A stretch of 64,000 bases of DNA from Halobacterium wangiae. Its GTDB lineage: Archaea; Halobacteriota; Halobacteria; Halobacteriales; Halobacteriaceae. The position numbers and the translations under genes were made by a program. The DNA lies in the NCBI RefSeq assembly GCF_021249345.1, contig NZ_CP089588.1, positions 124,001 through 188,000 of the forward strand, written 5' to 3'. Positions 47,633 to 59,830 of this stretch are shown in pieces; the stretch's first letter is position 1; every line of letters begins with the position of its first letter. The notes beneath the pieces are model-generated. The model saw nothing but the letters and a program-made list of their open reading frames with translations. It was not told the origin of the DNA and ran no database searches.

Positions 47633-48979
47633 CTACGCCGATTCCCCGGCGGTAACTTGCGGGTGTGTATGCTCCTCGTTGAGACGGTGAGCGCGTGGTG
47701 ACGCCGACCATCGGTGGTCGTCCCACTTGAGGCATACGAGCCGTGCCATCGGCCGTGGTACGTCTGCTTCGTGGCTTTGACGAGACAAGTTGTGTCTCGC
47801 TCGCCAATCAGAACTTTCTAAGTTCTGATGACGTCGGAGGAACGTCTCCGACGCGGTGAGATCCGCGTGGCCTTCGAAGCCACACGAACAGGTGAGCGTG
47901 TCCTGATGCCGAGTCGTGTCCTCCGTCGAACCGCACTGCGGACACGTCTGCGAGGTCCACGCTTCGGGGCGGACTTCGACGGTGATGCCGTACTCCTCGG
48001 CGGTACACGCGAGCCGGTCAAGGAACGCGCGGAACGCCCAGAAGTTGTGCGTCTTAGCGTTCGCCCGCACCGACCAGTGCGTTTCCAATACGTCGGTGAG
48101 GTCGCCAACGTACACCGTCGAAACGCCCTCTTCGTACAGGCGCTCGAAGAGGTCACGGGCGAGGGCGTCCATGGCGTGGTCGCGCCGTCGCGTCCGGCGG
48201 CGGTACAGCCGTCGAATCCGCTTCGAGGAGTACCGCTCCTCTTCGCGCTTGACTTTCGATTGGTGGTCCGCGATTCGGCGGGTTGTCTCGCGGAACAGCG
48301 CGAAGAGGTCGCGTCCTTCGTACAGGTACTGCTGGCCGGTCGTGGTCGTACAGGCGACGATGTTGTTTGCGCCAATATCCAGAGCAGCCGTTTCGTCGGC
48401 TACTGGTGAGTCCCGCCGAGAATCGTTCGTGGTGACAGGTTGAATAGCCCTGAATTGGTCGCTCAACTTATCGTAGTACAATTCGAGCCGGCCTTGATCG
48501 CCCGACCACTTCGGCTTCCCACGAACGTCGAGCGTGAGACGTTCGCGGTAGCCCATGTCGTACTCGTCCTTGAGGTCGCTGCCGGCCGTGATTTCGATGG
48601 TCGAACGGTCGCCCCAGCGGAGCGTGTACTGGTCGTTGCGGATGTACGTTCGCAACTCCCGTCCCTCTTCTTCGTTGCCCCAGTAGCCCGGAAGGCCGTT
48701 GGCTTCACCCTTCTCTTTCAGGGCGAAAAACGACCGCCACGCTTCGGTATTCTTGCGAATCACCTGTTGGGCCGTGGCGCTCCCGAGGACGCCGACGTAC
48801 TGCTTGCGGTAGTCCTCGGTGTCCCACACAGACTTGTCGATGTCGGGGTCGGTGAAGTTCTGCCGACGCTCGTAGGTGAGTTGATTCCACAGCGAGGCAG
48901 AGGCGTCCAACAGTCGGCGAAGCAGTTCTTCGTCGGCGTCGGAGCGCGGGACGACGCTGAAGGAGTTGACGCGCCTCAT
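47633..48979 (-). CDS. tnpB: TnpB-like RNA-guided nuclease of IS-A, RuvC-II Glu missing
   Basis: 448 residues. RuvC-I Asp in [12 protein letters not shown] (Asp201) and RuvC-III Asp in [11 protein letters not shown] (Asp373) are present; the zinc ribbon is CPQC (346/349) with CSC (364/366). The RuvC-II site, normally VxxEDL, reads VYVGDLTDV, with Gly292 where the catalytic Glu should be. Either the enzyme is dead or another acid, such as Glu378 in the RuvC-III motif, substitutes. The start overlaps the tnpA stop (ATGA). It lies on the minus strand and ends 50 bases before the right end. Confidence 0.88.
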
Positions 48980-49368
48980 GCGGTCCACTCCCCATTTTGT
49001 TTGTCCTTTTGCTCGCGGATGTACTGCTCGACAGCGTCTTTTGAGACGCTGCCGGCAGTCCCGACGTAGTACGAGCGGGTCCACTTGATGCGGTCGTCGG
49101 CCCGTTCATTGTACCACCGGGCGGAAATTCCCTTCACCCAGTTGACGATTAGGGAGGGGGCGTTCTTCGGCGGGCTGCCGATGTAGAGGTGGACGTGGTC
49201 GGGCATGATTTCGGCTTCAACCAGTTCGAGGTCTTTGTCGTCACAGATTTCCTCAAAAATAGAGTGAAGCCTGTCAGCAGTCGCACCCGTGAGACGCTGC
49301 TCCCAGTACTTTGGAATGAACACTATGTGGTAGTAGAGTTCGTAGACAGCGTGACGAGTGTTCTTCAC
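48976..49368 (-). CDS. tnpA: Y1 HUH transposase of IS-A
   Basis: 130 residues, full length for IS200/IS605 TnpA. The HUH pair is in MPDHVHLYI (His58, His60) and the nucleophile is the Tyr of VEQYIREQ (Tyr116). A GTG start at 49368 ([16 protein letters not shown]) fits the family. Cuts and rejoins single-stranded ends of the element. Appears functional by sequence. Upstream of tnpB with a four-base overlap. Confidence 0.9.
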
Positions 49369-49559
49369 TATGCGTGTATACCATGGTTAGCATGGATAGT
49401 AAGTGTCCCGGTCGAACCCCGGCCTTGCCATCGCCATTGGACTGTTTGGCCGGGCTTACTGCTCGACCTCGTCCTGAATGGCAGCTTGCGCTCGAATTTC
49501 ACATCAGACCGCGTGAACGCTCTCGGTACGTCCAAGTGCTGCGGGTGGGAAGGTCCGCT
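49369..49559 (-). other. Left end region of IS-A
   Basis: About 190 bases between tnpA and the FAD gene without coding bias on either strand. It includes short inverted segments (CCCGGTCGAACCCCGG at ~49406-49421; CCATGGTTAGCATGG) that may be the left-end hairpins needed for TnpA recognition. The current start of the FAD gene must use whatever promoter this region offers. Confidence 0.45.
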
Positions 49560-50798
49560 GTGACTCATCAGACCGACGTCCTCGTCGTCGGCGGCGGGGC
49601 GACCGGGGCCGGCGTCGCTCGCGACCTGGCGATGCGCGGCGTGGACGTGACGCTCGTCGAGCGCGGCGGCCTGGGGAGCGGTACCTCCGGGCGCTCACAC
49701 GGTTTGCTCCACAGCGGCGCGCGCTACGCCGACACCGACCCGGAGGGCGCCGCGGAGTGCATCGCGGAGAACCAGATCCTCCGCGACGTCGCCGGCGCCT
49801 GCGTCGACGCGACGGGCGGCTTCTTCGTGCAACTCCCCGACGACGATCCGGACTACTTCGAGGCGAAGGTCGCGGCCTGTCGGGACGCGGGCGTCCCCGT
49901 CGAGGTGATGGACGGCGAGGCGGCGCGCGCCGACGAACCCGGGCTCTCGGCGGACGCCGAGCGCGTGGCCGAGGTTCCGGACGGCGTCGTCTACCCCTCG
50001 AGGCTGGTCGCGGCGACCGCCGCCGACGCCCGCGAGCACGGTGCGAGCGTCCACACGCACGCACAGGTCCGTAGTCTCCTCGTCGACGACGGCCGCGTCG
50101 TCGGCGCGGACGTCGGGGGCGTCGGCAGGGTTGAGGCCGACCACGTCGTCAACGCGACGGGCGCGTGGGCCGACTCGCTGGCCGCCACGGCCGGCGTCGA
50201 CCTCGAGGTCCACCCGACGAAGGGCGCGATGGTCGTCGTCGAGTACGACGGCCTCGACACCGTGTTGAACCGCTGTCGGCCCGCCGCCGACGGCGACATC
50301 GTCGTGCCGCACGCCGACCGCGTCGTCCTCGGCACGACCAGCGTCGAAGTCGGCGACCCCGACGAGTTCCCCGAAGACGAGGCGGAGGTCGAGCGCGTCC
50401 TCGCGGAGTGTGCCGAGATGCTACCGGACGTCGCCGACCACGCAGTCGAACGAGCGTACTGGGGTGTCCGCCCGCTGTACAGTCCGCAGTCCTACGGCGA
50501 GAACGCGCGTGCCATCTCCAGGGGGTTCTACCTGCTCGACCACGCCGACCGCGACGGCGTCGCCGGGTTCACCACCACCGTCGGGGGGAAGCTCACGACG
50601 TACCGGCTGATGGCCGAGGCCACCGCAGACCACGTGGCCGACCGTCTCGGCGTCGACGAACCGTGCCGGACGGCCGACGAACCGTGCCGGACGGCCGACG
50701 AACCGCTGGTCGGCCACGACGACCCGGACCGTCTCGACGAACTAGTCGCCGAGTTCGACGCCGCGAACCCCGCCGACGCGGACGTCGGCGGCGACTGA
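49560..50798 (+). CDS. GlpA/D-like FAD-dependent oxidoreductase, 5' end displaced by IS-A
   Basis: 412 residues from a GTG. FAD-binding DVLVVGGGATGAGVARDLAMRG and VERGGLGSGTSGRSHGLLHSG, then HVVNATGAWADSL and VGGKLTTYRLMAEA, as in glycerol-3-phosphate dehydrogenase subunit A. It lacks the C-terminal iron-sulfur/BFD-like region of true GlpA (normally well over 500 residues) and has no glpB, glpC or glpK beside it, so the substrate is uncertain. The native start is probably at 47568, now separated by IS-A. The C-terminus carries a short tandem repeat. Confidence 0.8.
   Translation: MTHQTDVLVVGGGATGAGVARDLAMRGVDVTLVERGGLGSGTSGRSHGLLHSGARYADTDPEGAAECIAENQILRDVAGACVDATGGFFVQLPDDDPDYFEAKVAACRDAGVPVEVMDGEAARADEPGLSADAERVAEVPDGVVYPSRLVAATAADAREHGASVHTHAQVRSLLVDDGRVVGADVGGVGRVEADHVVNATGAWADSLAATAGVDLEVHPTKGAMVVVEYDGLDTVLNRCRPAADGDIVVPHADRVVLGTTSVEVGDPDEFPEDEAEVERVLAECAEMLPDVADHAVERAYWGVRPLYSPQSYGENARAISRGFYLLDHADRDGVAGFTTTVGGKLTTYRLMAEATADHVADRLGVDEPCRTADEPCRTADEPLVGHDDPDRLDELVAEFDAANPADADVGGD
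50655..50705 (+). repeat. 21-base in-frame tandem repeat in the FAD gene
   Basis: Two perfect copies of GACGAACCGTGCCGGACGGC(C) and a third partial one, encoding DEPCRTA-DEPCRTA-DEP. Adds seven residues per unit with two cysteines; likely slippage-prone. Confidence 0.85.
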
Positions 50799-51072: not shown

Positions 51073-52347
51073 TTAGTCGGACACTCCCATCCGACCATCG
51101 GCCTGATAGCCTCGAACGGGCGGGTGGGTCACGGTCGGGGCGTCCACGGCCCCCGATGCCTGCCGTCGCACCTTCCTCATGGTGGGGAGGCTGTTGAGAG
51201 CAGGCACATTCCAATCGAGTTTCTTGACGCCTTTCACGGCGATATTGACGCTTGCACCACGGTCGCTGTGGTCTTGATGCTCGCAGGACTTGCACTTGAA
51301 CCGCTTCTTATTGCGATTCGCCCGTTCCGTGTGTCCACACAGCGGACACCGTTGGCTCGTGTACTTAGGGTCAATCCACTCGGTCGGAATCCCCTCGAAC
51401 GCGGCCTTGTACGACGTATAGAACTGAAGTGCACGGAACGGGAGGTGGTGCAGGCGTCGGTTCATCCGCGTACCGTAGTCGATACTGTCGCGCATCTCTT
51501 TGAGGTCCTCAAAGACGATGCACGGCTTCTCGAACTGACGGCTCCACTCCACTATGTGCCGGGACACCTTGTGGAGTCGGTCGCGGACGAACCGTTCCTC
51601 ACGCCCTTCGAGCGTGTCGTGGATCCTGTCCTTTCCCGCGTTCTGGACGCGCTTGCGCATCGTGAAGTAGCGGTGGCGCTCGAACTTGATTTCGGGGAAA
51701 TCGATGACCAAAGAGTCCTTGACACCACGCTCGGAGAGTGCGGTGAGGGCCACGTTGTCCTCGTTTACGTCTACACCGACGACCGTCCGCGAGTCATGCT
51801 TGTCTCGAACGGATTGCTTGGTGTTGGTGACGTTGACGTGTAACTCGGCGTTGTCGTTGTGGAACAGGGCCTCTGCCGTCCCAATCTTCCACTCATCACT
51901 CGTGAGTGCAGTCTTGAGAATGTCGAGGTGCGCGTGATCGCCTTCGAGGACGCCCGTGACGTGTTTGTACGGCTTCGCGCTGATGCGGAACGCCACGTCA
52001 CCGTCGTCGGTGAGCGAAAGGTTGTAACCCTCCGTGTAGTTCGCTCGGAGCGGGTACGCGCCGCCTTTAGTGTGGCTCGGGGGTCCGAAGTCGTCGTACT
52101 CGTAGTAGTTCTCCATCGCACTGAGTGCTTTGGCGACGACGCGCTGAGTCGTGTTCTTCACGAGGTTAGCGTCATCAGCCACGCGGTCGGAAATGGCGTC
52201 CCAGTCCACGCCTTCCTTGGCGAGGCGGATGGTTTCGTTGTACACTCGGCGGGCCTCAAGCGTGGCATCGTAGAGTAGGCGCTCGTTGTCACTGTGAATG
52301 TCGAGTTGAAAATCCAGCGTCTTGATGAGTGCCTGTGCGGCGGTCAT
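51073..52347 (-). CDS. tnpB: TnpB RNA-guided nuclease of IS-B, catalytic triad intact
   Basis: 424 residues. RuvC-I Asp193 (VVGVDVNEDN), RuvC-II Glu280 (PCIVFEDLKEM) and RuvC-III Asp362 (HSDRGASVNIA) are all present, as is the zinc ribbon CPLC/CKSC (334/337, 352/355). The N-terminal wedge/REC region is normal in length. The C-terminal ~40 residues are variable, as expected where the coding sequence overlaps the omega-RNA. Predicted to cut DNA matching the flank of its own right end. The ATG overlaps the stop of the RHH gene (ATGA). Confidence 0.9.
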   Translation of the reverse strand: MTAAQALIKTLDFQLDIHSDNERLLYDATLEARRVYNETIRLAKEGVDWDAISDRVADDANLVKNTTQRVVAKALSAMENYYEYDDFGPPSHTKGGAYPLRANYTEGYNLSLTDDGDVAFRISAKPYKHVTGVLEGDHAHLDILKTALTSDEWKIGTAEALFHNDNAELHVNVTNTKQSVRDKHDSRTVVGVDVNEDNVALTALSERGVKDSLVIDFPEIKFERHRYFTMRKRVQNAGKDRIHDTLEGREERFVRDRLHKVSRHIVEWSRQFEKPCIVFEDLKEMRDSIDYGTRMNRRLHHLPFRALQFYTSYKAAFEGIPTEWIDPKYTSQRCPLCGHTERANRNKKRFKCKSCEHQDHSDRGASVNIAVKGVKKLDWNVPALNSLPTMRKVRRQASGAVDAPTVTHPPVRGYQADGRMGVSD

Positions 52348-52975: not shown

Positions 52976-53122
52976 TCAGTAGACGAGGCCGTCGACGGTC
53001 GTTCCAGGGTAGTCCGCGACCGCCGCCTGCACGGATGCGGCGGCCGACGCGAGGTCCGAATCCTGGACGCCGAAGACAGATGCGATCTGGGCGACGGTGT
53101 CGCGTTCGAAGGGACCAGTCAT
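52976..53122 (-). pseudogene. 5' fragment of the small conserved gene split by IS-B
   Basis: 48 codons with a normal start: MTGPFERDTVAQIASVFGVQ, then YPGTTVDGLVY and an immediate TGA at the IS-B boundary. The body of the gene is the fragment at 50805-51049. The break lies between GLVY and the VHEWRQAF segment. The promoter side is intact, so a 48-residue truncated peptide may still be made. Confidence 0.65.
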
Positions 53123-53162: not shown

Positions 53163-54098
53163 TTAGTAGTCGAGGTCGTCGGTCGACGCGTCGAGGGCGA
53201 GCACGAGTCCCGCGCCGACCACGCCGGAGACGAGCAGCGGCACCGCGGCAGCCACGGTCCACTCGGGGGTGGCGTCGGCGATGCGGATGGCCGGCGCGCG
53301 GAGTGCACCCGCCATCAGCGCCACGAGGAACGTCAGCGTCGCCGCCCGGTACGTGTCCAGAGCCCACTTCACTGCGCGCGCGAACGACAGCAAGCCGACG
53401 AACGCGCCGAGGATGAACACGACGAGCGTCGTCATCGGGTCGACCGCCTGCCCGAACTCGCCCGCGAACAGTGTGTCCGTCGCGGCGCTCACCGCCGACG
53501 TCATCGTCTCGTACTTCCCGACGGTCAGCAGGATCAGCGACCCCGAGACGCCCGGGAGCACCATCGCACAGATGGCGAACGCCCCGACGACGAAGATGAC
53601 GAGCAGGCCGCCCGGGAGCGCGTCGCCCTGCGCCTGGCCGCTGAGCACGAACGCGAACGCGAACCCGAGGACGCCCGCCGCGATCCGCCCAGGGGTATCC
53701 GCGGACACCTCGTCGAACAGCACGACGACGGAGGCCGCGATGAGGCCGAAGAAGAACGCGAACGTGAGCCCCGGGTAGTCGTGGTACGCGATCTCGACGA
53801 GGTTCGCCACCGTGACGACGGCGCTCACCACGCCGATTCCCAGTATCGCGAGGAACGGCACCTCCATGTCGGTCAGCGTCCCCGCGAACTCCGCGCGGAC
53901 GCCGTCGTCCCCGAGTCGGGGCACCAGCGCCAGCAGCCCCACGGCTTCTCGCGGGTCGAGTGCCGCGAGCGCGGAGACGAGTCGCTCGTAGATGCCCGTG
54001 ATGAGCGCGATGGTCCCGCCGGAGACCCCCGGCACCGCGTCCGCCGCGCCCATCGCCGCGCCCTTCAGGTAGACGATGAGCCAGTCCCGCGCCGCCAT
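53163..54098 (-). CDS. DUF368 membrane protein, candidate polyprenyl-phosphate translocase
   Basis: 311 residues with about nine transmembrane helices. Two repeated DUF368 signatures: GAAMGAADAVPGVSGGTIAL near the N-terminus and AICAMVLPGVSGSLILLTVG in the middle. Bacterial DUF368 proteins (PopT) recycle undecaprenyl phosphate across the membrane. Here the gene overlaps aglB by one base (TGATG), so returning dolichyl phosphate to the inner face after oligosaccharide transfer is a strong inference. The archaeal activity has to be shown. Confidence 0.85.
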   Translation of the reverse strand: MAARDWLIVYLKGAAMGAADAVPGVSGGTIALITGIYERLVSALAALDPREAVGLLALVPRLGDDGVRAEFAGTLTDMEVPFLAILGIGVVSAVVTVANLVEIAYHDYPGLTFAFFFGLIAASVVVLFDEVSADTPGRIAAGVLGFAFAFVLSGQAQGDALPGGLLVIFVVGAFAICAMVLPGVSGSLILLTVGKYETMTSAVSAATDTLFAGEFGQAVDPMTTLVVFILGAFVGLLSFARAVKWALDTYRAATLTFLVALMAGALRAPAIRIADATPEWTVAAAVPLLVSGVVGAGLVLALDASTDDLDY

Positions 54099-57000
54099 CA
54101 GCCGACGCGACGGAGCAGGAGACCAGCGACGACGGGCAGTGCAGCGGCCGTCAGCCCGGCGGTCGTCGCCGACGAGTCAGTCGCCTGGCCGCCCGACGTG
54201 CCGTCGGCGGTCAGCGACGACGACTCGGGGGCGCTCAGCGTCTCGGAGGTGTCGTTCTGCGCGCCCTCCGGTTCGTCGACCACGTTGCGCTCGAGGTCGA
54301 CGGTTACCGTGTCGTCGGACTCGCCGAGCACCTGCGCCTCGGTCACGTCCGCGGTCGCGTTCCAGTTCACGACCGTCACGCCGTCCTCGGCGGTCGTGTT
54401 CCCCGTCGAGAACTCGTACGGGCCGGCCGCGCGCACCGAGACGTTCGTGTGGCCGTTCTCCGGTCCGAAGTTCTCGTAGCCGGTCGTCGAGTACGGCAGC
54501 GTCATCGTGAACTCGCCGTCCGGCCCCGTCTCGGCGTGCTGCGTGTACGTGAACGTCGGGTGGGAGTTGTCCTGGTTGCTCGTCATCTGCGAGAGGTTCA
54601 TCTCGACCGTAGCGGTCACCGTCGTGTTCGCGGGCGCGGTCCCGGTCACCTCGGCGCCGTCGACGCGCTCGAACAGCTTCACCCACGTCGGCATGTAGCC
54701 GTAGTTCAGCTCGCCGTTCAGGATGAGGTTCGCCGGTGCCAGGTTGTCGTCGCTCACGCCCACCAGCCGGTAGTGCTGCAGGGCCGCGACGTCCTCCTCG
54801 GGCACGTCCTGGAAGCCGCCGATCTGGGACGTCGAGTCGTTGGCGACGTAGGACTCTGCCGCGCTCATGTTGTCGAACTGCCTGACGTTCGTCGTCGACT
54901 GGTCGAACACGAGGAGCGGCTGGCCGGTCGGACTCCGCCGAGTCTCCTCCCAGTCGAGCACCGTCGGCTGCGCCTGCTTCGCGCTGCCGTGGTAGCGGTA
55001 GAGCCGAACCGACATCGACTCGAAGTACGACTGCCCCTTCACGAGCGGTGCCTGCTGGAGGTACCGCGCGCCCTGAATCTGGCCGTTCTCGTACTGCGCG
55101 TTGTACGCGACGCGGTAGAAGTCGCTCGCAGCGAAGTTCCGTGGCCCGTCGTAGAAGACCAGCGGCGCGGAGAACTTCGCCTGCCCGGAACTGAGGTCGG
55201 GCCGCGGCGGCATGATCATCTTCCAGTCGACGGCGACGTACTTCGTCGCCGCGTCGTCCTCGTCGATGCCCTCGAGGACGTCGGCGGCCTCGGACTCGTT
55301 CTGCGCGAGCAGGAAGTTCGCGGCCGTGTTCGCGCCCTGCTGGAACGGGTTGGCGTGGGGCACACGTTCGCCCTCGACGGTGATCCAGTGGCCGTAGTCC
55401 CACCAGGACATGACGCCGTAGGCTCCCTCGGGGTAGTCGAAGTCCCCGCTCCGGGAGTACGTCCCGTAGTAGTCCATCGCGTCCGCGTTCGACGCGCCGC
55501 CGTACTCGCCCTGGGCGGGCGTGTGCGTCTGCATCCACTCCATCGCGTCGTCCCACTGGACGACGGCGCCGGGGCCGTTCGACGAGCCGACGGTGATCGC
55601 CGACTGGAGGGGGACCTGCTGGTTGTTCGCGTTCGTCAGCGTGATCGGCGTCGCGCTCCCGCGCTGGGAGTCGTTGTTCGTCGCCTCCGCGACGGCGGGC
55701 GCCGCGACCGGCACCAGCACGAGCAGGACGACCATCACGACGGTACCGACCTGGTACCAGCTCACGTCCTCGATGGTCGAGGCGGGCCGGTCGAGGTCGA
55801 GCACCGACAGCACGCTCGCGAGCAGGTACGCGTTCAGCACGACGACCGGCACGACGAGGTAGTAGTTGAACCGCACCTGCGTGAACGCCGCCGAGGTGAT
55901 GAACGCGCCCCAGACGACGACCAGCAGCGGGCCGGCGTCGTACTCGCCGGTCACGGCGATGGCCGCCAGCGTGATGCCGACGATACCGAGCGCGGCGAGC
56001 TGCCCGCCGATGCCGAAGATACCGCCGATCCACGCCGGGAAACCGGGCGCGGCGAACATGAGGAGGACGACCGCGACACCGACCGCTGCGCCGGCGAGCC
56101 GCTTCAGACTACCGCTCTCGAGGTGCGGCCGGAGCAGGATAATCGCGGCCGCGAGGAGGGCGGTGAAGAACGCCAGCCCGTACTCCAGGAAGATGACGCC
56201 GAACATCCCGAGGCCGTACGTGTTCGTACGGGAGAGGAACGGCTGGGCTTCACCGATGGTTCGGGTTGCCGCCCCAGAGCTGAAGCCGACGAAGCGGAAG
56301 AGGTTCGTCTCGACGAGCGACCAGAGTTCGGGGAGGACGACGGCGGTGGCGGCGACACCGACGACCAGGATACCGAGTACTGCGGCAGGGTAGGAGTCCG
56401 CAGTGAACTCGCGGTCGTCCCACTTGCGGGCGAGCCACGCGAGGAACACCGCGCCGCCCGCGACGGCCATCGAGAACACCGGCTGGAGAAGAGAGAACTT
56501 GCTCGCGGAGAACTCCAGGGTCGACAGGGGGACCAGCATCAGGAGGGCGGTCGTCGCCATGCTCACTGCGGCGACGATAGCGACGTGGTCCGGGCTCGAC
56601 CCGCTGTAGTAGTCGCTGGTCAGCTTCACGAGGTAGAAGACGCCGAAGATGCCGACGAGGAGGATACCCGGCGGCCACATCCACATGTAGGCCGCGGCCG
56701 CGACGCCCGCGAGCACGCTCCAGGCGACAACCCGGCGGAGGCCCGAGACGTCGCGGTCGACGAACTGCTCGTAGACCGGTTTCTCGCGTTCCGCAACGCG
56801 GAGCGCGAGAAGCGTGCCGAGGACGGCCAGGGACTGGAACAGCGGCTCGGCACCGTTGTGGTCGGCGGCGCCGACGAGGCTACGCTGGAGGAAGTAGCCC
56901 GGGAGGAGCGCGAGGATGACCGCTGCGAACACGCCGCCGATGCGGCCCCCGAGGTGTTTCCCGATGAAGTAGACGGGGATCGCGAGCAGCGCGCCGAAGA

Positions 57001-57394
57001 CGGCCGGCGCGAACAGCAGCGTCATCGCGACCGTCTGCTGGGAGGGGTCGCCGAGACCGACGACGAGCGCGGCCGTCGCGACGAGCTGGTCGAACAGCGT
57101 GCCGAACTGGCCGACCGACGTCCCCGTCGAGAACCCCGTCCAGACGTCGAACGGCATCGTCTCGGGCCAGTTCTGGACCGTGTACATCACCTGACGGAAG
57201 TGGTACCAGGCGTCGTTGCCGGAGAAGTACACCTGCCCGTTCCGAGTGAAGTTCTCCCACGCCTGGACGCGCACCCAGAGCATGAACGCGAGGACCGCAC
57301 CCAGCACGGGCACGTGGTACCAGTCTTCGAGCGCGTCGAGGGCGTTGTCGACGGAGAAGGCGGACTCCCTCGGCGCTTCGTTCTTCTCGCTCAT
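54098..57394 (-). CDS. aglB: Archaeal oligosaccharyltransferase AglB
   Basis: 1098 residues. GT-C fold with about 13 transmembrane helices (residues ~30-500), including the first-loop acidic motif FSGNDAWYHFRQ and FSTGTSVGQFGTLFDQ. The catalytic WWDYGHWI lies at about residue 664 in the extracellular domain. Beta-rich C-terminal modules follow, and one more C-terminal helix (TAGLTAAALPVVAGLLLRRVG). Transfers the dolichyl-phosphate-linked glycan to Asn of N-x-S/T on exported proteins. The ATG at 57394 was chosen because the conserved cytoplasmic start and first helix follow; the longer open frame upstream is low-complexity shadow. Confidence 0.95.
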   Translation of the reverse strand: MSEKNEAPRESAFSVDNALDALEDWYHVPVLGAVLAFMLWVRVQAWENFTRNGQVYFSGNDAWYHFRQVMYTVQNWPETMPFDVWTGFSTGTSVGQFGTLFDQLVATAALVVGLGDPSQQTVAMTLLFAPAVFGALLAIPVYFIGKHLGGRIGGVFAAVILALLPGYFLQRSLVGAADHNGAEPLFQSLAVLGTLLALRVAEREKPVYEQFVDRDVSGLRRVVAWSVLAGVAAAAYMWMWPPGILLVGIFGVFYLVKLTSDYYSGSSPDHVAIVAAVSMATTALLMLVPLSTLEFSASKFSLLQPVFSMAVAGGAVFLAWLARKWDDREFTADSYPAAVLGILVVGVAATAVVLPELWSLVETNLFRFVGFSSGAATRTIGEAQPFLSRTNTYGLGMFGVIFLEYGLAFFTALLAAAIILLRPHLESGSLKRLAGAAVGVAVVLLMFAAPGFPAWIGGIFGIGGQLAALGIVGITLAAIAVTGEYDAGPLLVVVWGAFITSAAFTQVRFNYYLVVPVVVLNAYLLASVLSVLDLDRPASTIEDVSWYQVGTVVMVVLLVLVPVAAPAVAEATNNDSQRGSATPITLTNANNQQVPLQSAITVGSSNGPGAVVQWDDAMEWMQTHTPAQGEYGGASNADAMDYYGTYSRSGDFDYPEGAYGVMSWWDYGHWITVEGERVPHANPFQQGANTAANFLLAQNESEAADVLEGIDEDDAATKYVAVDWKMIMPPRPDLSSGQAKFSAPLVFYDGPRNFAASDFYRVAYNAQYENGQIQGARYLQQAPLVKGQSYFESMSVRLYRYHGSAKQAQPTVLDWEETRRSPTGQPLLVFDQSTTNVRQFDNMSAAESYVANDSTSQIGGFQDVPEEDVAALQHYRLVGVSDDNLAPANLILNGELNYGYMPTWVKLFERVDGAEVTGTAPANTTVTATVEMNLSQMTSNQDNSHPTFTYTQHAETGPDGEFTMTLPYSTTGYENFGPENGHTNVSVRAAGPYEFSTGNTTAEDGVTVVNWNATADVTEAQVLGESDDTVTVDLERNVVDEPEGAQNDTSETLSAPESSSLTADGTSGGQATDSSATTAGLTAAALPVVAGLLLRRVG

Positions 57395-57495: not shown

Positions 57496-58422
57496 ATGCG
57501 AGTCTCCGTCGTCGTCTGCACCTACACGATGGACATGTACGAGCACGTCCGGGACGCCGCCGACGGTGTCCTCGAACAGACGTACGACGACGTGGAACTC
57601 GTGCTGATCTCGGACGGCGACGAGGACGTCTACGACGCCATGTGTGCGGACTACGGCGACCGCGAGAACGTCCGAATCGGCTGTAACGACGAGAACCGCG
57701 GGCTCTCCTACAGTCGGAACCACGGCGTCGAACTCGCGACTGGGGATGTGGTCGCGTTCCTCGACGACGACGCCGTCCCAGAACCGGACTGGGTGGCGGA
57801 ACTCGTCGGCGGCTACGAGCGTCACGACGCGCTGGCTGTGGGTGGGAAGATGACACCGCTGTGGGTGGACGGGAAACCCGAGTTCCTCCCCGAGGAGTTC
57901 TACTGGCTCGTCGGCGTCACCCACCGTGGTTACGCCGAGGAGGAGTGTGAGGTCCGGAACACGTTCGGCTCGAACATCTCCTTCCGGCGGGAGATCTTAG
58001 AGGATCTTGGCGGGTTCGACGAGAACCTCGGCAGGAAGGGAGAGGCGCAGGGGCAAGGCGAGGAGACGGAGATCGCAGCGCGCATGCACGAGGAGTACGG
58101 CGAATCTGTCTGGTACGTTCCCGACGCGGAGGTCGGGCACAAGGTGTTCGACTTCCGGACAGACCGCAGGTGGCTCCTCGAGCGCGCATTCTGGCAGGGC
58201 CACTCGAAGCGAGTGATGGGGGACCTCGTCGAGGACAGCGGTGGGCAAGAGGGTGAGTTCCTGCGGCGGCTACTGGTCGAGTTCGGCCCACTCAGATTCC
58301 TCGGCCTCGTGATGAATCCGTCCCTGGCGAAAGTCGAACAATTAGTCATGCTCGTGTTATTGACGGTCTCCGTCGGACTCGGATTCTTGTGCGCGAATCT
58401 CTCGAGGCTGGCGTCGAGCTAG
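57496..58422 (+). CDS. aglG: AglG-like family 2 glycosyltransferase
   Basis: 308 residues. RVSVVVCTYTMDMYEHV, NRGLSYSRNHGVELATGD, AFLDDDAVPEPDW with the DxD metal site, and the C-terminal HKVFDFRTDRRWLLERAFWQG typical of AglG/AglI-like glucuronosyl-type transferases; one or two membrane helices at the end (VEQLVMLVLLTVSVGLGFL). Divergent from aglB with a TATA-like CTATAC about 29 bases before the ATG. Expected to extend the dolichol-linked glycan, probably with a uronic acid; the donor is inferred from the family. Confidence 0.82.
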   Translation: MRVSVVVCTYTMDMYEHVRDAADGVLEQTYDDVELVLISDGDEDVYDAMCADYGDRENVRIGCNDENRGLSYSRNHGVELATGDVVAFLDDDAVPEPDWVAELVGGYERHDALAVGGKMTPLWVDGKPEFLPEEFYWLVGVTHRGYAEEECEVRNTFGSNISFRREILEDLGGFDENLGRKGEAQGQGEETEIAARMHEEYGESVWYVPDAEVGHKVFDFRTDRRWLLERAFWQGHSKRVMGDLVEDSGGQEGEFLRRLLVEFGPLRFLGLVMNPSLAKVEQLVMLVLLTVSVGLGFLCANLSRLASS

Positions 58423-58432
58423 CTCTCTGACT

Positions 58433-59830
58433 TCAAATAAACGAGGTGGCTTTCTGACGAATCCGGCCCGACAGGGCTAACAGGACAATCGCGTAAACGG
58501 CGCTGCCTGCAAAGATGATCACGATTGTAGCGAGGTGGCCACGCTGGAATTGGCCAATTGACATCCACACAAAGCCCACCATCACGATACTGGCGAATAT
58601 CTCAATCGAGATCTCATGCAAGGGAATCGCAAGTGTACCAAGTTCACGTACCAGTAGTGCGTACCCGAGCAGGAGGTAGACACCACTCGAAACGAGCGTA
58701 GCGATGGCAGCCCCGTACCAACCGATGGTGACGACGAGTCCAACGTTCAACAACAGATTCACACCGACGAACACGGCGTTCACACGGAATGCGGCTTCCG
58801 GCCTATTAATGCCATTCAGCGTGTTAACAAACTGGCCTCCGAACGTGTGCAGTACTTGGGCGCCGATTAGAATACCGAGCACCGTGGCGCCCTCAGCGAA
58901 CTCCGGCCGGTAGATTCTCAGCAGGTCATCTCCGATGACTAGTGCTCCGAAGAACCCCGGGATGAGAAAGATTCCAGTAAACACGAGTCCCTCGTCCAGA
59001 AGGTGCTTGATCTCGTCGAACTCGGCACGAGTACTCAGGGAACTCATCTTCGGGAAGAGCGTCGAAGTGATCGAAGTCCCCGCGATGGCGAGGAACGAGG
59101 CTAACGTCCACGTCACTTGGTAGATTCCGATCAGGTTGTCGGCGACGACGAAGCCGAGCACGAAGATGTCCATCCAGTTCAGGGCACTCCCCTTCAAACT
59201 CCCCAGCCAGGAGTATTGGGCGAACGAGAGCACCGAGTCGAACGAAGAGCGGGTGGGCCATTCCAGATACTCCTTCAGTAAGACGGCACCGACCAGCGAG
59301 ACGACGAAGAGTGACAACAGGTGGCCAAGCACCAATCCCAGTACAGCGTACCCCAAAAGGACGAGTCCGACCTGACACACGAGCCGGACAACTCTCTCCG
59401 CAGTCCCGAGCCAACCCGATGCCGCGACGCGGTTCGCCCCAATCAGTCCACTGGCAACCGTGTCGTATCCGGCGGTCACTACCAGTAGCAGCGGTAAGTA
59501 CAACGCCAGTTCCGTCCCGAGGTAGGCGTTCACGTACTCCTGACCCGTCACAACCCCAACCGCCACGAGAGCTGCGTACCCCCCGACAATCAGAATCCCC
59601 GCGACGAAGATTCCTGGTCTGGAGTTATCTTCGCTCATTCGCTTCGAGATTGCAGAGCCGATACTGTCCGTGGGGAACTTCAGCCAGAAGAGGAGCGTCA
59701 ACAGTTGTGAGTAGATGCCCAGCGGGGTCGCACCCAAGTACCGCGCGATGAAGAACGTCGCCAGGAAGCCGGCTACGGACCGTGTAACCTGTGAGACAAA
59801 ATGGAGGATAGCAGTCTTTCCAGAACGCAT
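58433..59830 (-). CDS. Lipid-linked oligosaccharide flippase (MATE/RfbX-like)
   Basis: 465 residues with about 12-14 transmembrane helices. Start AILHFVSQVTRSVAGFLATFFIARYLG, the usual opening of Wzx/polysaccharide transporter proteins; GTSITSTLFPKMSSLSTRAEF and the C-terminal NTLNGINRPEAAFRVNAVF also fit. It would move the finished dolichol-linked glycan to the outer face for AglB (AglR-like role). GC content and codon use drop from here to the end of the window. Confidence 0.85.
   Translation of the reverse strand: MRSGKTAILHFVSQVTRSVAGFLATFFIARYLGATPLGIYSQLLTLLFWLKFPTDSIGSAISKRMSEDNSRPGIFVAGILIVGGYAALVAVGVVTGQEYVNAYLGTELALYLPLLLVVTAGYDTVASGLIGANRVAASGWLGTAERVVRLVCQVGLVLLGYAVLGLVLGHLLSLFVVSLVGAVLLKEYLEWPTRSSFDSVLSFAQYSWLGSLKGSALNWMDIFVLGFVVADNLIGIYQVTWTLASFLAIAGTSITSTLFPKMSSLSTRAEFDEIKHLLDEGLVFTGIFLIPGFFGALVIGDDLLRIYRPEFAEGATVLGILIGAQVLHTFGGQFVNTLNGINRPEAAFRVNAVFVGVNLLLNVGLVVTIGWYGAAIATLVSSGVYLLLGYALLVRELGTLAIPLHEISIEIFASIVMVGFVWMSIGQFQRGHLATIVIIFAGSAVYAIVLLALSGRIRQKATSFI

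Follow-up and report, generated by a model that had tools for sequence, protein, structure and literature searches.

The 64,000-nucleotide stretch of Halobacterium wangiae DNA analyzed here (the window) contains the archaeal oligosaccharyltransferase gene aglB, followed on the same strand by a gene of the DUF368 family (Table 1). The two genes overlap: in the junction sequence (...GTCGGCTGATGGCG...), the last base of the aglB TGA stop codon is the first base of the DUF368 ATG start codon, as the first-pass annotation had stated. AglB additionally matched PF02516, PF22627, and PF18079 in Pfam and carries the catalytic motif WWDYG at residue 664. Profile searches of the complete 3.1 Mb genome retrieved one DUF368 gene and one aglB match. 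Past its TIGR04154 match, the C-terminus of AglB is a low-complexity tail of acidic/Ser/Thr character that includes a short hydrophobic segment and, close to the end, RR; these tails differ strongly among genera.

Table 1. Features at and around the aglB-DUF368 pair of H. wangiae (window coordinates)
Feature	Position	Strand	Evidence or remark
IS200/IS605-type element	47633-49368	-	TnpB-like protein (PF01385, Cas12f1-like TNB domain) beside TnpA-like ORF
FAD-dependent oxidoreductase, GlpA-like	49374-50798	+	PF01266; 474 aa
IS200/IS605-type element	51073-52347	-	Second TnpB-like ORF
48-aa ORF directly downstream of DUF368	52976-53122	-	No Pfam match
DUF368, PopT-family polyprenyl-phosphate translocase candidate	53163-54098	-	311 aa; PF04018, 216.9 bits (gathering cut-off, 26)
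TGATG junction, aglB stop and DUF368 start with one base in common	54096-54100	-	Sequence
C-terminal tail of AglB	54098-54320	-	Low complexity
aglB, archaeal oligosaccharyltransferase	54098-57394	-	1098 aa; TIGR04154, 875.4 bits (cut-off, 450)
aglG, glucosyl-dolichyl-phosphate glucuronosyltransferase	57496-58422	+	NF041394 equivalog, 484.5 bits (cut-off, 440); divergent from aglB
Wzx/polysaccharide-synthase-type flippase, candidate for the outward step	58433-59830	-	PF01943, 46.3 bits (cut-off, 28.2); role from context only

The location of aglG beside aglB points to dolichyl monophosphate as the lipid carrier, and passages of a review (PMC3871713) describe haloarchaeal N-glycans of the AglG type as built on this lipid. 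Genes of the Wzx type (family c10) also adjoin other aglB-DUF368 pairs.

PF04018, currently described in Pfam as "Undecaprenyl phosphate translocase-like," was the sole Pfam match of the DUF368 protein, in which PF09335 (the DedA/UptA domain) was absent; the match covers residues 16 to 268 and profile positions 1 to 227 of 246 and is thus near full length. The scores against the NCBIfam PopT equivalogs NF052564 and NF052563 were 187 and 92 bits, below the cut-off of 400; judged by these profiles, the protein is a PopT-family member outside both curated equivalogs. Its AlphaFold2 model, obtained from a 52-sequence alignment (pLDDT 93.6, pTM 0.88), contains a helix-break-helix at about residues 20 to 27 and another at about residues 181 to 185, each on a PGVSG motif (residues 23 to 27 and 182 to 186), and these are the predicted re-entrant hairpins. 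The N- and C-terminal halves are homologous to each other (hhalign probability 97.6%, E 4.5e-12, 130 columns). The modeled protein therefore has the two predicted hairpins and the two-fold repeat that mark PopT, for which inverted two-fold symmetry and two re-entrant loops have been published (PMC10216114). Across 52 haloarchaeal and bacterial DUF368 sequences, 27 residues were invariant, many of them within the hairpin motifs. Among solved structures, phmmer and a profile search retrieved no meaningful sequence relative, and a Foldseek search of the PDB gave no match to the model at E ≤ 0.001. BbZIP was considered as a fold relative (best VIA-align rows with Z 9.3, 162 residues, and rmsd 4.5) and rejected; since the VIA-align scores fall in the range of unrelated helical bundles, no fold relationship is claimed.

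With the PopT proteins VCA0040 of Vibrio cholerae and SAOUHSC_00846 of Staphylococcus aureus, the H. wangiae protein shares the Pfam family, the motif residues, the two predicted re-entrant hairpins, and the internal repeat; identity to the bacterial DUF368 relatives compared was roughly 35 to 43%. It differs from PopT in being archaeal, in scoring below the equivalog cut-offs, in its expected carrier, dolichyl phosphate, and in the overlap of its gene with that of an N-glycosylation enzyme. Bacteria need members of this family to remove outer-leaflet undecaprenyl phosphate (UndP), as reviewed in PMC12826051. Like the H. wangiae protein, HVO_RS12060 of Haloferax volcanii is a haloarchaeal DUF368 protein, and for no other was an experiment found: according to passages of Sit et al. 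(2022, PMC9876793), it gives at least partial complementation of a V. cholerae mutant without VCA0040. The complementation of a bacterial popT mutant that the first-pass annotation had proposed is therefore already in print, with a positive if partial outcome, and this homologue was assayed solely in a bacterium that uses UndP. The UptA/DedA (PF09335) UndP flippases, which have two re-entrant loops (PMC10216114), resemble the H. wangiae protein in the proposed return of polyprenyl phosphate but belong to a different sequence family.

To see how far the gene pair extends, profile searches were run on 292 genomes of Halobacteria, and DUF368 was present in 289 of them, as was TIGR04154 (289/292). 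Two genomes in which neither gene was found (G186 and G205), possibly owing to draft-assembly loss, were excluded from the evidence. Among 52 sampled haloarchaeal genomes with DUF368, some of which are related and hence not independent, 35 (G052 among them) carry the gene immediately 3' of a co-oriented aglB. Direct adjacency was seen in 18 of 28 genera, over seven families, with aglB always first and on the same strand. Two more genomes (G013 and G042) had DUF368 at most 2.4 kb from aglB, two (G029 and G047) had it adjoining aglM with aglB elsewhere, and in the remaining 13 it was far from aglB and adjoined no recognized glycan gene. A set of 36 named haloarchaeal contigs was biased by its selection for similarity to the H. 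wangiae DUF368. In 31 of these, aglB precedes DUF368 and is read in the same direction; examples are Halobacterium salinarum DSM 3754, Haloferax mucosum, Natronomonas, Halorubrum, Haladaptatus, and Halogeometricum limi, the last with a gene intervening between the two. Of 68 linked loci, which include some near-duplicates, 15 have genes that overlap by 1 or 4 nt, and in 31 the genes are within 30 nt of each other. By heuristic gene calls, each downstream neighbor family was limited to about 4 of 26 linked loci at most; because the genes beyond the pair differ between loci, the pair has been held together while its surroundings turned over. The adjacency is far above chance in haloarchaea, and in these salt-loving archaea a PopT (DUF368) family gene usually follows aglB directly. 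The first-pass annotation had asked for such a survey and had taken an absence of linkage elsewhere as counting against its proposal; the linkage proved to be class-wide.

In a tree of 93 DUF368 sequences, all haloarchaeal copies formed one clade (support 100/100), with aglB-linked copies in both branches of its deepest split. This distribution is best read as a linkage ancestral to the class, so that the pair apparently dates back to the origin of Halobacteria. Unlinked copies from Haloarculaceae, together with an additional Natrialbaceae paralogue, formed a derived clade (100/99), and two Natrialbaceae genomes (G005 and G024) retain both an aglB-linked and an unlinked copy. The divergent unlinked paralogue related to the Haloarculaceae copies is common to Natrialbaceae (L166, L171-L179, L182, and L183), in some of which it is the sole DUF368 copy. 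Several Haloferacaceae have the order aglG-aglB-aglM-DUF368 (L107 and L213-L215), the intervening gene encoding AglM, a UDP-glucose dehydrogenase (NF041297, 754 bits). In the Halobellus group, aglB has moved away and DUF368 still lies beside aglM, and in Haloferax relatives the DUF368 gene adjoins either aglB or an aglM that adjoins aglB. The H. volcanii glycosylation cluster is drawn from HVO_1517 to HVO_1531 (aglM) in passages of PMC3871713; since it ends at aglM, the H. volcanii DUF368 gene may sit just beyond its recognized edge. HVO_1531 itself was at first suspected to be DUF368 and is aglM according to the same passages.

Outside Halobacteria, 242 genomes of the phylum were sampled, and just 37 of them had DUF368, whereas aglB was nearly universal; in none of the DUF368-positive genomes examined did the two genes adjoin. 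Among methanogens, DUF368 is missing from most genomes that encode AglB. In one methanogen family (f30; L189, L191, and L199), aglB and DUF368 share a strand and are 12.5 to 14.3 kb apart in 4 of 5 sampled genomes, a loose but recurrent linkage that was not counted as adjacency. Profile searches found aglB and no DUF368 in G020, and in G334, which has AglB, neither DUF368 nor a PF09335 match was detected. DedA-type (PF09335) proteins were present in 17 of 19 genomes tested, with three matches in the H. wangiae genome, and could be an alternative for the same recycling job. DUF368 is thus not the sole archaeal carrier recycler, given G020, G334, the AglB-bearing methanogens without DUF368, and the wide distribution of DedA. 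The recycler role put forward in the first-pass annotation agrees with the family, the predicted architecture, and the AglG-type monophosphate pathway, but it cannot be extended to a single recycler for archaea.

We consider it probable that DUF368 is a polyprenyl-phosphate translocase of the PopT family that is made with AglB and returns inward the dolichyl phosphate that AglB frees. The glycan would be assembled on dolichyl monophosphate at the cytoplasmic side and then flipped outward; AglB would transfer it to asparagines of the S-layer, with dolichyl phosphate staying in the outer leaflet; DUF368 would move this lipid back to the cytoplasmic leaflet via its pair of inverted re-entrant hairpins, and the returned carrier would be used again. 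As the glycans are monophosphate based, AglB should free dolichyl phosphate directly, a lipid acceptable to a PopT. Inward return appears to be the most economical reading, from which we infer the dolichyl substrate and the direction of transport in the archaeon, as well as co-transcription and functional coupling to AglB. The more specific proposal, a dedicated return flippase serving AglB that is ancestral to Halobacteria and expression-coupled to the oligosaccharyltransferase, seems to us evenly poised. Against a recycler speak the 13 unlinked genomes among 52, the AglB-bearing genomes without DUF368 (G020 and most such methanogens), the DedA proteins as candidates for the task, the missed equivalog cut-offs, and a complementation that was partial and in a UndP-using host.

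If transport ran in the opposite direction, DUF368 would flip the charged lipid (dolichyl-phosphate oligosaccharide) out to AglB instead of the empty carrier back. Tight linkage to AglB is expected of such a supplier as much as of a recycler, and passages of PMC3871713 name no forward flippase for the main Haloferax glycan, its lipid-linked tetrasaccharide being merely "flipped." However, the substrate of bacterial PopT is bare polyprenyl phosphate (PMC12826051 and passages of PMC9876793), the mutant complemented by the haloarchaeal homologue was defective in carrier recycling (passages of PMC9876793), and Wzx-type genes, the usual outward flippases, are present in the H. wangiae cluster as well as beside other aglB-DUF368 pairs. 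Outward transport is accordingly quite improbable.

We also regard as unlikely a general translocase of polyprenyl phosphate or envelope lipids that serves salt and pH tolerance, in which case the adjacency would reflect joint expression of surface genes and DedA or other routes would handle the bulk of recycling. Vibrio depends on its PopT at high pH and high sodium, and a role in halophile adaptation was proposed by Sit et al. (passages of PMC9876793); the unlinked Haloarculaceae and Natrialbaceae copies adjoin unrelated genes, DedA proteins are widespread in haloarchaea, and G020 retains aglB without DUF368. Yet DUF368 adjoins aglB specifically and continues to do so where the neighbors on both sides have changed, and both G005 and G024 keep a linked copy besides the unlinked one. 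A gene order of historical origin, without functional link, would fit the lineages that lost the linkage and kept both genes, but the stop and start codons that overlap by 1 or 4 nt and the retention of the pair in seven families amid flanking turnover make this highly improbable. Dolichyl-phosphate return thus remains our preferred reading.

The family, its predicted activity, and cross-domain complementation are already published. The literature searched contained no archaeal DUF368 knockout, lipid-sidedness data, glycosylation data, or assay. Roney and Rudner (2022/2023), whose work was outside the scope of this search, reportedly included synteny analyses; within its scope, no statement was found on aglB synteny of DUF368, COG2035, or PopT. 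Given the literature covered, what is new is the class-wide, apparently ancestral linkage and a testable proposed role in archaeal N-glycosylation. The return of dolichyl phosphate that follows N-glycan transfer is poorly assigned in archaea and, to our knowledge, in eukaryotes as well. With a conserved two-gene unit of oligosaccharyltransferase and carrier transporter, genetically tractable archaea allow this step to be tested directly, and the proposed role, if true, would broaden PopT beyond undecaprenyl to include dolichyl carriers. Passages of Sit et al. (PMC9876793) mention archaeal members and dolichol phosphate within a general discussion of polyprenyl phosphates, and those searched do not mention aglB linkage.

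The region downstream of the pair contains several further features (Table 1). The 48-aa ORF is conserved in Halobacterium relatives, with 47 to 63% identity in L021, L030, L031, and L086. Of the two IS200/IS605-type elements, the second places another TnpB-like ORF close to the pair. The GlpA-like oxidoreductase is possibly truncated, its relatives having about 590 aa, and several other haloarchaea have a glpAB-like pair close to aglB-DUF368 (families c4 and c9).
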